Position numbers and translations under genes: made by a program. Below are positions 39,103 to 44,400 of a DNA stretch of 64,000 nt, piece after piece. The stretch covers positions 62,001 to 126,000 of the forward strand of contig NZ_VTAW01000009.1 in the NCBI RefSeq assembly GCF_008245225.1, given 5' to 3'. The DNA comes from Natrialba swarupiae (lineage in GTDB: Archaea; Halobacteriota; Halobacteria; Halobacteriales; Natrialbaceae). Under the pieces are notes generated by a model that was not told the DNA's origin, ran no database searches, and saw only the letters and a program-made list of their open reading frames with translations. Numbering within the stretch: the stretch's first letter is position 1; every line of letters starts with the position of its first letter.

Positions 39103-39239
39103 ACACGTACTCGCCGACGGGGTGTCCTAACGCTGGCGTTTTCGTCGGCCCGCAGCGATGGTAGGCACGAACGTACGACGGCTCGACCGCATTCATCGAG
39201 GGTCGAAGCGCTTTCGGCGTTCCGGTGAGAGCGATCGGT

Positions 39240-39662
39240 ATGGGCGTTCGAATGCGGCTGACGGCCGTCGAGACGGTCCACGACGAGGGATCGTGGCTGT
39301 TCACGGTTCGCGACCGCCACGGCGAACTCGAAGAGATACTCCTCGTTCCCTGCGAGGACGGCGTCGAAGCGTGGATCAACCGCTGTACGCACGAGTCTCA
39401 GCGCTTCGACACCGGCAACGGGGCGGCAATGCGAGAGGGGCAAATCATCTGCCCGAAACACGGCTCGATGTTCGACTCCTGTAGCGGCTACTGCGACAAC
39501 GGCGAGGCCGCAGAGACGACGCTACCCTCGGTCGACGTGGCGGTCGACGACGGGACGGTCTACCTGACCGACGACGACGTCAACTACCTCCACGACGGGG
39601 GCATCGACGAGAACGAGGACGAGGACGATGGCCCCGCCTCGACCTCCCACCTCTCGTTTTGA
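39240..39662 (+). CDS. Rieske [2Fe-2S] ferredoxin-like protein
   Basis: 140 residues. The cluster ligands are in CTHESQRF (CxH) and CPKHGSMFD (CxxH), about 40-75. Further cysteines follow in DSCSGYC. It has no signal peptide or membrane segment, so it is a soluble Rieske protein of the nitrite reductase/NirD type, probably a redox partner. The start at 39240 (MGVRMRLTAVETV) is chosen; the internal ATG at 39252 is possible. The tail is acidic. Confidence 0.9.
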   Translation: MGVRMRLTAVETVHDEGSWLFTVRDRHGELEEILLVPCEDGVEAWINRCTHESQRFDTGNGAAMREGQIICPKHGSMFDSCSGYCDNGEAAETTLPSVDVAVDDGTVYLTDDDVNYLHDGGIDENEDEDDGPASTSHLSF

Positions 39663-39696: not shown

Positions 39697-40095
39697 ATGG
39701 AACGACGAACCGTCTCGAGTGGAACCGAGTGGGAACCGAGAGTCGGCTACTCGCGGGCCGTCCGTGCCGGGTCACAGGTCCACGTCGCCGGCACGACCGC
39801 GACCGACGAAAACGGGGACGTCGTCGGCGTCGACGATCCGTACCGCCAGACCGAGCGGGCACTCGAGATCGTTCGCGAGGCGCTCGAAGCGGCCGGAGCC
39901 ACGGTCGATGACGTCGTCAGAACTCGCCTCTACGTGACGAACATCGACCACTGGGAGGAGATCGGGCGAGCACACGGCGAGGTCGTCGGCGAGGTACGAC
40001 CGGCGGCGAGCATGGTCGAGGTCGAACGCCTGATCGATCCCGATCATCTGGTCGAACTCGAGGCGGTCGCGGTCGTCGACGATAACGGCGAGTGA
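39697..40095 (+). CDS. RidA/YjgF family protein
   Basis: 132 residues. The RidA pattern is visible: VGYSRAVRAGSQVHVAGTTA at the N-terminus, RQTERALEIVREALEAAGATVDDVVRTRLYVTNIDHW in the middle, and PAASMVEVERLIDPDHLVELEAVAVV at the end. Arg residues near 105 in RPAAS fit the enamine/imine deaminase site. It detoxifies reactive enamines from pyridoxal enzymes. A second RidA is encoded at 62383, so two paralogues share the window. Confidence 0.9.
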   Translation: MERRTVSSGTEWEPRVGYSRAVRAGSQVHVAGTTATDENGDVVGVDDPYRQTERALEIVREALEAAGATVDDVVRTRLYVTNIDHWEEIGRAHGEVVGEVRPAASMVEVERLIDPDHLVELEAVAVVDDNGE

Positions 40096-40559
40096 CGAAC
40101 GTGCTCGATTCACTCGCATCGAGGTCCGTCGAACGGCCGTCTCGAATCGAGTCGACGGCGTTGCGGTCGTCGCTGACCAACCTATAGTAGCCACTGCAAG
40201 TCATTGCGCACCTGATCGCCAGACAGATCGGCGGTCAGTGTGCAAATCGTTGCAGTTGTTAGTATATCGTTTACGGTAGTAGACGAGGCGCGACCGACTC
40301 GCGCCACGAGAAGGTGACAGCGGACTGCGTTTCTCACACACCGATTCGTCTCGATGGCTGTGAGTGCTCGAGGCCGGTTCGGACGTCGGCGCTTGCGTGT
40401 GTCGTCGACCGGTGGTGGTCCGGTCGTCACGTCCGCGCGTTCGGAAAGGAGGCGTCCGCCGGCCGACACGGTGTGTGGACGATCGGTGCTCGCAGTCGGT
40501 GGCATGACACGAGAGCGGAAACTGACCACGAACGCTCTCGTTCCGTCTTGCAGGAACTC

Positions 40560-40655
40560 ACCTGGGCTTTCAGTGTTCCGAGGGGGAACACGAACGATTC
40601 CACGCCCCGGTCGTCCCGGGGCGCAGTCGACGCTACGACACACCGATACTTAAAA
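40560..40655 (-). ncRNA. candidate metal-regulated small RNA
   Basis: Downstream of the operator at 40677-40690, read on the minus strand, two strong hairpins follow: CGCCCCGG / CCGGGGCG (40603-40610, 40616-40623, loop TCGTC) and GTGTTCC / GGAACAC (40573-40579, 40585-40591, loop GAGGG). The region has no protein-like frame; the open frame there is arginine-rich. The exact ends are unknown and the boundaries given are guesses. It could also simply be structured intergenic DNA. Confidence 0.3.
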
Positions 40656-40690
40656 TTGACTAACCTAGAATATATTTTAGATGAGTCTAA
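40656..40690. promoter_or_regulatory. orphan metal-regulator operator and promoter
   Basis: TTAGA-TGAG-TCTAA at 40677-40690 is an inverted repeat identical in arms to the box before the metal-binding protein gene (43682-43695). A TATA-like TATATTTTA (40671-40679) and the half-site GACTAACC (about 40658-40665) adjoin. GACTAACC also occurs in the regulator's promoter. On the minus strand the order is box then TATA, as before the binding protein; on the plus strand it is half-site, TATA, box, as before the regulator. Direction is therefore ambiguous. Confidence 0.6.
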
Positions 40691-40815
40691 CTCAACTAGT
40701 GGGTGCGGTGTTACAGTGAGTGCTTCCGAGTGAGCGTCGTCCGACCGACGCCCCGATCGCCAAACGAACACGTGTTCGTGAGAATCGAAACGACCGGACG
40801 ACGTGGTCGAACGCT

Positions 40816-41805
40816 CTACGTGGTCGATAACAGAACGGAGAAGAGAAGAGCCAGTACGTAGAGGGCAATCGCGACGAGGATAATCATCGCACCGGTCGCG
40901 ATGTCCCACGAGTACGAGAGGAAGATACCCCCGAAGACGGCCGTCTGTCCGAGCAGTACCGACAGGAGGAGGCCGTGATCGAAGCTATTGGTGAGCACCA
41001 TCGCGGCCGCGACCGGAATAACGAGCATCCCGGCGACGAGAATCGCACCGAGGATCTGCATCGCGGCGACGACGACCAACGCGGTCAGGACGATCAACAG
41101 CGTGTCGTAGAACGCGACGTTGATCCGTGCGAGGCGTGCGGCCTCCCGATCGAACGTGATGAACAGTAACTGCTTGTGCGTGAGCGCGATCGTTCCGACG
41201 ACGACGAGCGTCAGCGCGACCATTAACTGGACGTTCTCGAACGGGACAAACAGGATGTCGCCGAACAGGTAGCTCTCGACCGTGGCGTGAAAGGTCACGC
41301 CGTAGGAGATGACGGCGATTCCGAGCGCGAAGCCGCCGGTGAGCATGATGGCGATCGGGATGTCGGCGTAGCCGTCGGTTTTGACTGCGACGTACTGTAT
41401 CGCGAGCGCCGCGATCGTCGCGACGATCAGGGCGAACGCCAGCGGGTAGTCGAACCGGGGGGCCGCCGCGCCGACGAACAGCCCGATCGCGACGCCGCCG
41501 AACGCCGTGTGTGCAAGCGCTTCGCCGATCAACGCCATCTGGCGGTTGACGAGGTACGCACCGACGACCGGAGCGGTGATGCCGATGAGAACACCGGCGG
41601 TGAACCCCCGCTGGAGAAAGCCGCTACAGACGAGCCACGTGTCGACGGCGTTACACGCACTCCCCCAGAAGGCGTCGTATATGACCGGGAATATCGTGAG
41701 GATGAACGCCGCGGAGACGACCATCATCACCGCGAGGCTTCCCAGAACGGCGTACTCCTCGCGGGTGGCCAGACGATGGGCGACTCCCTCGGCGGCCATC
41801 GTCAA
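40816..41805 (-). CDS. metal ABC transporter permease (ABC-3 family, ZnuB/MntB type)
   Basis: 329 residues with about nine membrane segments (YAVLGSLAVMMVVSAAFILTIFPVIY, VLIGITAPVVGAYLVNRQMALIGEALAHTAFGGVAIGLFVG, VVVAAMQILGAILVAGMLVIPVAAAMVLT and others cut by function). ALIGEALAHTAFGGVA and ILGAILVAGMLVIPVA are ABC-3 signatures. An N-terminal extension with a loop of two cysteines (ACNAVDTWLVC) precedes the core. It overlaps the ATPase gene by 4 bp and is last in the operon. Confidence 0.92.
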   Translation of the reverse strand: MTMAAEGVAHRLATREEYAVLGSLAVMMVVSAAFILTIFPVIYDAFWGSACNAVDTWLVCSGFLQRGFTAGVLIGITAPVVGAYLVNRQMALIGEALAHTAFGGVAIGLFVGAAAPRFDYPLAFALIVATIAALAIQYVAVKTDGYADIPIAIMLTGGFALGIAVISYGVTFHATVESYLFGDILFVPFENVQLMVALTLVVVGTIALTHKQLLFITFDREAARLARINVAFYDTLLIVLTALVVVAAMQILGAILVAGMLVIPVAAAMVLTNSFDHGLLLSVLLGQTAVFGGIFLSYSWDIATGAMIILVAIALYVLALLFSVLLSTT

Positions 41806-42554
41806 TCACCCGCCGCTGGTGCCCACGAACTGGCGACCCGCGCGGAACTGTACACGTCCTCGAGCACGCCGCTCTCGAGGAACTGTTCTGTCTCGGAGTG
41901 TTCGTACAGTTCGCAGTCGAGACAGGCCATCGTATCGGCGTGTTCGGCGACGACGCCGATGTCGTGTTCGATCAGAACGATCGTGATGCCGTCGTCGTTG
42001 AGGTCGTCCAGCAGGTCGTAGAACCGATCGACGGAGTGGGCGTCGACGCCAACCGTCGGCTCGTCGAGTGCGAGCAGATCGGCCTCGGAGGCGAGCGCTC
42101 TCGCGATGTACGCACGCTGTTTCTGCCCGCCGGAGAGTTGGCTGATCCGTCGCCCCGCAAGGTGATCCATCTCGACTTGCGCGAGCGCGTCGTCGACGAT
42201 CCGGTGGTCGTCGGCGTTCAGCCGTCGCAACCCGGCGTGTGCGTATCGGCCCATCTCGACGACTTCGCGAACCGTGACGGGCATCATCGAGTCGGATTCC
42301 GAAGACTGCTGTGAGACGTAGCCAAGACGGGCACCATCCGAAAACGCCGAAGCCGGCGTACCGAAGAGTTCGACCGATCCGGTATCGGGCGTTCGTAGAC
42401 CCAGCATGATCTTCAACAGCGTCGTCTTTCCCGAGCCGTTCGGCCCGATCAACCCGAGAAACTCCCCGTCGTCGACCGAGAGCGTGACGTCTCTCACGAC
42501 CGGCTGGCGGTCGTACCCGAAACTCACGTTCTCGAGAGCGATTGCAGTAGTCAT
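41802..42554 (-). CDS. metal ABC transporter ATPase (ZnuC/MntB type)
   Basis: 250 residues from MTTAIALENVSFGYDRQ; a start 10 codons earlier is weaker. Walker A is GPNGSGKTTLLKIMLG, signature LSGGQKQRAYIARALA, Walker B LLALDEPTVGVD, and H-loop IEHDIG. A C-terminal extension with Cys and His (ACLDCELYEHSE) resembles manganese/zinc ATPases that sense metal. It follows the binding protein by about 70 bp. Confidence 0.93.
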   Translation of the reverse strand: MTTAIALENVSFGYDRQPVVRDVTLSVDDGEFLGLIGPNGSGKTTLLKIMLGLRTPDTGSVELFGTPASAFSDGARLGYVSQQSSESDSMMPVTVREVVEMGRYAHAGLRRLNADDHRIVDDALAQVEMDHLAGRRISQLSGGQKQRAYIARALASEADLLALDEPTVGVDAHSVDRFYDLLDDLNDDGITIVLIEHDIGVVAEHADTMACLDCELYEHSETEQFLESGVLEDVYSSARVASSWAPAAGD

Positions 42555-42623: not shown

Positions 42624-43631
42624 TCACTCCGTTTGGAGTGCCTCCTCGAGCGTCGGGAAGTTTACGTCACGATAGTGCTCGACGTACCCCCAGTCCTGTT
42701 CGTGATACTCCGGGAGCTGGGTTTCGACGGGCGAGATCGGGAGCACTTCGGCGTCGGTTTCGGCGGCGATCGACTCTGCCAGATTATTGGGTTCGCCGAC
42801 GTCGTAGAGCACGTGCTCGAGACCGTACTCGTCCATGACACTCTCGATCTCCTCGACGTCCTGGGCCGAGGCCTCGTCGTCGGGGGAGGTGCCAACGGGC
42901 GAGAAGATATCGAGGTCGTACCGTCGGTGCCACCACTGGAACGAGTCGTGGGTTCCGACGATCAACTGATCGACGGTCGCACGGTCGACGATCGCTTCGA
43001 ACTCCTCGTGGACCGCCTGGAGTTCGTCGTTGAACGCGTCCGCGTTCGCCTCGTACTCGTCGGCGTTGTCCGGGTCGAACGCCGCGAGTTCGTCCGCGAT
43101 GTTGTCGACCATGGTCTGACACTCGACGGGATCCATCCAGACGTGCTCGTCGTCGTCCTCCGCGGGGCTATCGAAGAACTCGATTCCCTCGGCGGCTTCG
43201 ATCACGTGAACGTCACCATCCTCCTCGAGTGACGAAGCGGCGTCGTCCTGCCAGCTGGCGAAATCGCGAAGGTAGATGAAGACGTCCGACTCCTCGACGT
43301 CCGAGACGACGCCTGGGCCGGGATCGAACTCGTGGCCGTGTTCACCAATCGGGACGAGATCGACGACCTCCATCTGGTCTCCCGTGACGTTGCGCGTGAG
43401 ATCCCACAGGGCGAGAAATCCGGTCGAAACGGTGTACTCCGTCTGGTCGCTGGTGTCGTCCGTCTCGGACTCCGACCCGTCGTCGGTTCCGGTGCCCGTA
43501 CCGTTCGAGTCGTCCTGTGGGTCGTCGCCGACACAGCCGGCGATGCCAGCGAGGAGTCCGCCTGCGCCGGCCAGTGCCGTCCGTCTCGTAACCCCATACC
43601 GCTTCGTATCGCTCGTTTCGTCTATCATCAC
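42624..43631 (-). CDS. zinc/manganese-binding lipoprotein (cluster A-I)
   Basis: 335 residues. A Tat motif (VTRRTALAGAGG) and lipobox ending at Cys33 (GIAGC) mark a lipoprotein. The metal ligands of cluster A-I proteins are visible: His100 in GEHGHEFDP, His163 in DEHVWMDP and His228 in GTHDSF, plus an acidic residue near YDVGEPN (about 300). Three histidines are typical of zinc binders, whereas manganese binders usually replace the third with Glu. The low-complexity linker after Cys33 is Asp/Thr-rich. It leads the operon to the ATPase and permease and lies under an operator that overlaps the end of the regulator gene. Confidence 0.9.
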   Translation of the reverse strand: MMIDETSDTKRYGVTRRTALAGAGGLLAGIAGCVGDDPQDDSNGTGTGTDDGSESETDDTSDQTEYTVSTGFLALWDLTRNVTGDQMEVVDLVPIGEHGHEFDPGPGVVSDVEESDVFIYLRDFASWQDDAASSLEEDGDVHVIEAAEGIEFFDSPAEDDDEHVWMDPVECQTMVDNIADELAAFDPDNADEYEANADAFNDELQAVHEEFEAIVDRATVDQLIVGTHDSFQWWHRRYDLDIFSPVGTSPDDEASAQDVEEIESVMDEYGLEHVLYDVGEPNNLAESIAAETDAEVLPISPVETQLPEYHEQDWGYVEHYRDVNFPTLEEALQTE

Positions 43632-43681: not shown

Positions 43682-43695
43682 TTAGATTTGTCTAA
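43682..43695. promoter_or_regulatory. metal-regulator operator before the binding-protein gene
   Basis: TTAGA-TTTG-TCTAA, a perfect inverted repeat about 50 bp upstream of the transporter start, followed on the minus strand by a TATA-like AATTTATTTT. It overlaps the last codons of the regulator gene, whose stop is 43692-43694. A second inverted repeat GTACC-TTAC-GGTAC (43657-43670) lies at the expected transcription start. Confidence 0.7.
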
Positions 43696-44381
43696 ATACC
43701 TTCTCGGTCGCTGTTCGTTATCGACGCTCCCCAGACGAGATTGGCGACGTCGGCCGGTAACGGTACTGACTCGTCGCGTCCGACCGGGGACACCGTGACC
43801 ATCCCAAACGGTGCGACCGATTCGATGGTGAGTGCAGTCTCCGGGACGATCTGCCGGTTCGAGAGGTACTCGAGAACCCCGTCGTCGCGATCGTCAACCT
43901 CCAGGACGACGACGGTCTTGCCTTCCGCGAACGCGGACAGCTGGTTACCGCGCGGACGGTCGGGAACGTCGAGCGACGCCGTCGGGATCGGTGCACCGTG
44001 AGGGTCGGTCGTGGGGTCGTCCAGTTCGTCAGCGAGACACGCCACGAGTCTGTCACTAATGTGGTGTTCGAGCCGATCCGCTTCGTCGTGTACGTCGCTC
44101 AGCCGGTAGCCAAACTTGGCCGTGAGATACGTCTCGAGCAACCGGTGGTTCCGGACGAGCCGGAGGGCGACCTGTTCACCCGCCTCGGTCAACACCGCAC
44201 CGTTGTACTTCTCGTATTCGACGTAATCGTTCGACTCGAGAGTTGAAAACATGCTCGTCGCCGTAGGTGCGGTCACCCCGAGATAATCCGCAATCTGGGA
44301 CGTTCGTACTCGAGCGCCGTTGTACTCGGTCTGTAGCTCGTAGATCGCCTTGAGATAATCCTCCATGACGGTACTCGGCAT
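43692..44381 (-). CDS. DtxR/MntR-family metal-dependent repressor with FeoA-type domain
   Basis: 229 residues. An N-terminal winged helix (MEDYLKAIYELQTEYNGARVRTSQIADYLGVTAPTATSMFSTLE, cut here by role) precedes the dimerisation and metal-binding domain with the usual acidic and His residues (DEADRLEHHISDRLVACL). The C-terminal SH3-like FeoA domain follows (LTIESVAPFGMVTVSPVG). Such repressors sense Mn(II) or Fe(II). It is transcribed toward the transporter operon, and its own promoter carries a GTTAG-N6-CTAAC palindrome, which suggests autoregulation. Confidence 0.92.
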   Translation of the reverse strand: MPSTVMEDYLKAIYELQTEYNGARVRTSQIADYLGVTAPTATSMFSTLESNDYVEYEKYNGAVLTEAGEQVALRLVRNHRLLETYLTAKFGYRLSDVHDEADRLEHHISDRLVACLADELDDPTTDPHGAPIPTASLDVPDRPRGNQLSAFAEGKTVVVLEVDDRDDGVLEYLSNRQIVPETALTIESVAPFGMVTVSPVGRDESVPLPADVANLVWGASITNSDREGI

Positions 44382-44384
44382 GGT

Positions 44385-44400
44385 GTTAGATGGGGCTAAC
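44385..44400. promoter_or_regulatory. operator-like palindrome at the regulator's own start
   Basis: GTTAG-ATGGGG-CTAAC, 4-19 bp upstream of the regulator ATG. A TATA-like AATATTAATA lies just upstream on the minus strand (44402-44410) and the half-site GACTAACC (44427-44434, reversed) beyond. This arrangement fits binding at the transcription start. Confidence 0.6.

Follow-up and report, generated by a model that had tools for sequence, protein, structure and literature searches.

In bacteria, the small RNA (sRNA) RyhB pairs at the start region of sodB, and FsrA follows a metal-sparing logic. The likeness of the enterobacterial RyhB-sodB pair to the case proposed here is that an RNA of metal limitation lowers superoxide dismutase mRNA by base pairing; in the part of the source that was accessible, the legend of Fig. 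5 refers to the complementarity of RyhB and sodB and to a marked start codon (PMC6191717). Metal-sparing logic is likewise described in the accessible part of a report on the bacterial sRNA IsrR (PMC9410917). The nearest archaeal case that we found, judged from the available portion of its description, is the Haloferax volcanii sRNA s479, a haloarchaeal sRNA tied to the metal-transporter genes znuABC, which represses the zinc importer itself, maps to a CRISPR locus and has a crRNA-like handle (PMC8155600). In Halobacterium, a Mn ABC importer, zurM-zurA-ycdH, is described as being repressed in a Mn(II)-dependent manner by the DtxR-family regulator SirR, and sRNAs go unmentioned in the accessible part of the paper on this regulon (PMC3600143).

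Here, we describe a predicted sRNA of Natrialba swarupiae, encoded in a 64,000-nucleotide stretch of DNA (the window) next to a metal importer. Unlike RyhB, this RNA is archaeal, unrelated in sequence and fold, composed of four hairpins, and without an Rfam match; it lies behind a DtxR-type rather than a Fur box, and its putative target is a Mn-type superoxide dismutase (SOD). It is best read as a convergent archaeal counterpart of the RyhB-sodB pair that would not be homologous to it. In contrast to s479, the RNA shares the box of the importer and is predicted to target sod, while IsrR/FsrA-type iron-sparing sRNAs differ from it in being bacterial, iron-regulated and unrelated in sequence. 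No archaeal sRNA that is both co-regulated with metal uptake and paired with sod was found in the open-access literature, consulted mostly at the level of titles and abstracts, with subscription papers and preprints outside the scope of the search.

The metal box and its neighborhood

The genome to which the window belongs comprises 4.2 Mb in 99 contigs; among the named loci found, those of Natrarchaeobius are nearest to it. A set of metal-uptake genes lies on the minus strand of the window, encoding a metal ABC transporter substrate-binding protein (42624..43631; PF01297 ZnuA, E 1e-53), its ATPase (41802..42548; PF00005) and its permease (40816..41793; PF00950 ABC-3, E 1.6e-59). Beside them, on the same strand, is the gene for a DtxR/MntR/SirR-type metal-dependent regulator (43692..44381; PF01325, PF02742 and PF04023 above cut-off), the candidate box-binding protein, with a one-mismatch box nearby at 44386. 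This regulator passes the DtxR domain tests (60.2 bits for PF01325, cut-off 26; 92.2 bits for PF02742, cut-off 27). Because it scores only 161.8 against the best NCBIfam MntR model (equivalog cut-off 350), the metal remains unassigned; the binding protein, ATPase and permease likewise miss their NCBIfam equivalog cut-offs.

Exact matches to the metal-regulon operator box TTAGA-N4-TCTAA occur twice in the window, compared with none in 100 shuffles: at 40677..40690 (TTAGATGAGTCTAA; TTAGACTCATCTAA on the minus strand, on which it is read) and at 43682..43695 (minus strand), before the gene for the substrate-binding protein of the same regulon. The whole 4.2-Mb genome holds only four such boxes, three of them before metal-transport genes; the two outside the window are on other contigs, one before an iron-type binding-protein operon (L001), the other flanked by a second DtxR gene and the gene for a ZIP-like transporter (L002). 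Since the other exact copies precede such genes, the box can be taken as a marker of metal-uptake genes, and the copy at 40677-40690 is the sole one without an attached protein gene. It is accompanied by a TATA-like element, AATTTTAA (40650..40657, minus strand), identified by direct reading; relatives have an A/T-rich element in the corresponding position. The initial annotation had reported precisely this combination of box and TATA-like element with no gene attached, and both were confirmed. The promoter thus shares the operator of metal-uptake genes, and the box is conserved together with the RNA described below, whose model start lies 51 nt downstream of it in the window.

The 720-bp gap that holds the sRNA extends from the end of the permease gene (40816) to that of a plus-strand RidA-like gene (40095). 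Between the latter and the 3′ end of the sRNA sits an imperfect, MITE- or terminator-like inverted repeat (40183-40266), with 29-nt arms that are 72% complementary and 26 nt apart.

The RNA, its helices and its relatives

The predicted metal-responsive sRNA occupies 40510..40627 on the minus strand. This assignment rests on models R1 and R2 and on covariation; the covariance-model match spans 40639-40507, both ends are inferred, and the start near 40627 is deduced from the usual archaeal promoter spacing. Folding predicts hairpin H1 (40600..40626, minus strand; CUGCGCCCCGG/CCGGGGCGUGG), in which 6 of 11 pairs are changed on both sides among 22 sequences; in hairpin H2 (40573..40591, minus strand; GUGUUCC/GGAACAC) this is true of five of seven pairs. 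Hairpin H3 (40551..40564, minus strand), the near-invariant CAGGUGAGUUCCUG with family consensus RUGAGYUCCUG, has one compensated pair and is the most conserved stretch of the RNA. Hairpin H4 (40510..40540, minus strand; CGAGAGCG/CGCUCUCG), also supported by folding and by 4 of 8 pairs changed on both sides in a model-fitted alignment, presents the 15-nt loop UUCGUGGUCAGUUUC (40518..40532, minus strand), which is conserved as unpaired and is antisense to the start of sod.

The two strong minus-strand hairpins noticed in the initial annotation are real and correspond to H1 and H2, but the feature, which had been ended at 40560, in fact reaches about 40510 and includes H3 and H4. The alternative offered there, a plus-strand transcript running antisense toward the permease gene, was rejected, as no conserved unit exists on that side; of the GTG frame placed at 40703, a GTG at about 40700 exists, but the frame spans only a few codons. 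Described RNA classes were also rejected: at the gathering threshold only tRNAs match Rfam in the window, so that this RNA belongs to neither RyhB nor any other Rfam family, and at E values up to 5 the only match is to CC0196, at chance level and on the opposite strand.

As folding energy is only moderately unusual (z of -2.2 for 126 nt and -2.7 for 145 nt), hairpin strength alone would not prove an RNA; it is the comparative evidence that establishes the predicted RNA as real. DNA searches detected the stretch in two of three other genomes of the genus, and in relatives fetched by way of their permease, boxes lay behind the permease gene or close to it; several of these boxes preceded similar hairpins whose stems had changed in a compensating manner. 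Model R1, a covariance model built from seven sequences, has matches in 22 of the 125 genomes of the family. Upstream of 22 of the 24 R1 matches, outside the model itself, lies a box with no more than two mismatches (at most one mismatch in 17), compared with a background of 1137 in 22,400 random 130-nt windows of the loci, a rate inflated by those loci's own boxes. For 16 of these 22, the distance from the start of the box to that of the model is 49-52 nt; in the remaining members the model start has slid, mostly without H1, or a degenerate box is tied with another two-mismatch site.

Model R2 also has matches in 22 of the 125 family genomes, and in each of them the best match is accompanied by a box. 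In a class-wide sample of 391 genomes it matches 21; upstream boxes were present for 8 of the 11 R2 matches examined. Within these 21, G183 and G210, which belong to another family, have perfect boxes at -50, and G352 and G402 have none. Two R1 matches (L053 in G107, L054 in G102) and three R2 matches (L062, a second place in G049; L064 in G352; L066 in G402) were judged false and dropped because they lack an upstream box, the best sites there having 4-5 mismatches. Box-plus-core patterns gave 14 matches in the class sample, versus two for a reversed control, and added G053 and G085; a pattern match in G365 fell outside the examined set, and the model alignments do not include a minus-strand match in L038 or the loci L013 and L015. 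In total, 26 genomes bear the RNA: 24 of the 125 in the family and two of another family.

The RNA was found in 20 of the 32 family genomes with a close permease orthologue (at least 71% identity), and undetected in the other 12, versus 4 of the 93 without one; in these four, its neighbor is a less closely related permease (42-50% identity). Its places include after the permease, divergent upstream of the regulator or binding-protein gene, after the regulator, and elsewhere near the gene set (L059 and L065 have no such neighbor within the stretch examined). Co-occurrence with the permease and these varied positions indicate that the RNA travels with the importer, independent of gene order. The same variation bears on the suggestion that the RNA acts in cis, as a leader or other element, on a gene located downstream, for which the RNA about 270 nt upstream of a codirectional regulator gene in G122 (L051) could be cited; since the position changes from after the permease to divergent from the binding-protein operon to after the regulator, and since the next genes downstream in the window (39225-39662 and 39697-40095, both plus strand) run the opposite way, we consider this the least probable reading of all.

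Two further loci were recorded. Natronolimnohabitans sp. A-GB9 carries two tandem sRNA copies (L019, 5624-5758 and 5923-6042; the same place as L035), each with a degenerate two-mismatch box, the second with a damaged H4 loop. In Halostagnicola (L013, 6657-6850), a one-mismatch box and a TATA-like element at the usual spacing are followed by GGAGGTGATCAATG and a short frame instead of the RNA; this may be a member that was replaced or has diverged strongly.

The helices themselves covary. In an alignment of 22 members, 16 of 30 pairs are changed on both sides, versus 7.2 in shuffles (sd 1.8; none of 500 as high), and pairing, which is 90.5% in register, does not exceed 58% once the helices are slid. 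Because this alignment was fitted to the covariance model, a structure-neutral alignment of 16 members was also made with MAFFT; its RNAalifold consensus recovered H1, H2 and H3, with nine compensated pairs, but not H4. Covariation had been weak in the first seven-sequence alignment (four double-change pairs, a count reached or exceeded in 236 of 500 shuffles). The conservation of hairpins and box in relatives, suggested earlier as a check, is thus borne out, the box keeping a constant distance from the RNA and the helices covarying.

E. coli MntS was first annotated as the sRNA RybA, and the transcript could in the same way encode a small metal-response protein. A start-like stretch, (A/G)TG-AGY-TCC-TGY (M/V-S-S-C), can be read at H3 (40551-40564 in the window, and homologues) in many members, which is the point in favor of such a protein; no frame continues from it. 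No reading frame is kept across the RNA members, the frame in which H4 would be read differs between species, a TAA directly follows VSS in G122, indels are not multiples of three, and the variation fits paired helices. A coding function was therefore rejected, and we regard it as very improbable.

The H4 loop and the start of sod

The complement of the H4 loop, RACTGACCACG, was searched in seven RNA-bearing genomes with no target presupposed, yielding 47 sites, seven of which are the RNA genes. When 45 of the 47 loci were clustered by shared proteins (the two left out being RNA genes), a single gene emerged whose start codon coincides with the site in six of the seven genomes: sod, which encodes a 200-aa protein identified as superoxide dismutase [Mn] by NF041312 (396.9 bits, cut-off 300). 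In the seventh genome (G103), the sod start ATGGCTGACC pairs over 15 nt if G-U is allowed. Other complement sites were set aside: one in a TFB gene at +270 in three genomes and those in a few genes in two or three genomes do not recur at a start codon, and a site near the start of an ABC ATPase gene was seen in one genome only. H3 was also considered as an antisense element; its complement, CAGGARCTCACC, has 28 sites in the seven genomes, and clustering of all 28 loci revealed no gene common to most and no shared gene with the site clearly at its start.

In the genome of the window, the RNA segment GUUCGUGGUCAGU (loop plus closing G, 40533-40521) would pair perfectly over 13 nt with ACUGACCACGAAC, codons 2-6 of sod, whose start reads AUG-ACU-GAC-CAC-GAA-C. 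The predicted duplex energy is -25.1 kcal/mol, compared with -8.7 (sd 2.3) for shuffles. Duplexes computed between the complete RNA and the complete sod start region are long and uninformative, and longest-run scores were used instead. Sod was found in all 26 RNA-bearing genomes, and contiguous Watson-Crick runs between loop and sod of 10-17 nt are present in 21 of them (median 12). Runs are short in the other five (8 nt in G096 and G122, 7 nt in G049 and G092, 6 nt in G053), where the longest run is not clearly above shuffles (21 to 339 of 500). The RNA of G053, found by pattern (L069), has the loop GGGCAGTTCGGGTTCAAATCC, which matches its own sod start over no more than 6 nt; it may have another target. 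By sequence only, the RNA thus fulfills two criteria of the functional class of metal-sparing trans-acting sRNAs, an operator shared with metal-uptake genes and pairing with the mRNA of a metal-using enzyme.

A real metal-regulated RNA might nevertheless act on other targets or on a protein, its match to sod being a coincidence of the conserved sod start. The five weak matches among 26 are compatible with this, as is the absence of an assigned partner for H3, the most conserved part of the RNA; moreover, the genomes are not independent, because sod N-termini are conserved. The best run among 202 ORF starts of the window is, however, 11 nt, against 13 nt for sod, and the loop follows silent changes in its target. 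In six genomes, codon 3 of sod is GAT instead of GAC, and all six RNAs have the matching A; in the 17 other scored genomes the RNA carries the G that matches GAC, so that 23 of 23 are concordant. For this test, G084 was scored by hand and the others by string rules, and G053, G183 and G210 were left unscored, their loops or sod starts not being comparable. On a sod tree built without the first 36 nt, each trait changes three times, giving two (on supported branches) to three independent pairs of changes, all concordant; with only two to three independent covariation events, no sign test is significant.

Genomes of the other family point the same way: against coincidence, G210 has a different loop, and this loop pairs with the sod start of the same genome over 17 nt (and over 14 nt with that of a second sod). 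In G183 the loop pairs over 11 nt with each of two sods, and cross-family combinations of loop and sod pair over only 5-8 nt, the loops of G183 and G210 reaching 6-8 nt with sods of the window's family. Native pairings sum to 296, versus 240 (sd 9.7) when permuted (none of 20,000 as high), although shared ancestry contributes to this difference, and some mismatched pairings are only modestly weakened (-22.5 or -21.2 versus -25.1 kcal/mol). Matching changes on both sides are shown, by sequence, to have kept the predicted loop-target complementarity, and we give coincidence a slim chance.

A proposed metal-sparing mechanism

We propose that a stand-alone structured sRNA of about 120 nt would be transcribed leftward from the DtxR/SirR-type metal-box promoter. 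As the same type of box precedes the neighboring Mn/Zn-type ABC importer, low metal (Mn, Fe or Zn, which the sequence does not fix) would free both promoters, and importer and sRNA would be expressed together. The exposed loop of H4 would then pair with the start-codon region of the mRNA for superoxide dismutase [Mn] and block its translation, sparing metal. Such a block is likely, by inference, because the paired region (codons 1-6) falls inside the footprint of the initiating ribosome. We assign this reading a probability of roughly 0.84; transcription, the metal signal, the sign of control and repression are all inferred. The suggestion in the initial annotation of a metal-responsive sRNA comparable in role to RyhB is supported as far as sequence data can take it, by the covarying RNA, the fixed-distance box and the sod-antisense loop.

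The sign of control is only inferred because the box lies upstream of the TATA-like element, a position that activators use too. The same RNA and target could consequently operate in the opposite sense, the regulator activating the RNA in the presence of abundant metal, or pairing raising sod expression. Pairing over a start codon, however, usually represses. In addition, SirR of Halobacterium is, according to the accessible part of its description, a Mn-dependent repressor of the importer (PMC3600143). Opposite control keeps a small chance, and low-metal expression with repression of sod remains the preferred reading.

More speculatively, the near-invariant H3 (AGGUGA-like, RUGAGYUCCUG) might be the site where a ribosome or RNA chaperone docks and brings the antisense loop to the start codon of sod, in an archaeal Mn-sparing sRNA converged on RyhB-sodB. 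We think this unlikely; it is worth considering because Haloferax sRNAs with ribosome occupancy but without a product have been reported, as far as the available part of that study goes (PMC12482152). H3 was rejected as a conserved Shine-Dalgarno mimic, AGGUGA being lost in several members (GGAUGA, AGAUGA), so that a Shine-Dalgarno role stays an open possibility only.

To our knowledge, archaeal trans-acting sRNAs are many, and regulator, signal and target are known for only a few of them. For this predicted archaeal sRNA, all three can be proposed from sequence, and the covariation of its loop with an mRNA serves as evidence for their pairing. If the proposal is true, metal sparing through start-codon silencing of superoxide dismutase would have arisen independently in the two domains, Archaea and Bacteria, and the archaeal version would probably involve manganese in place of iron.
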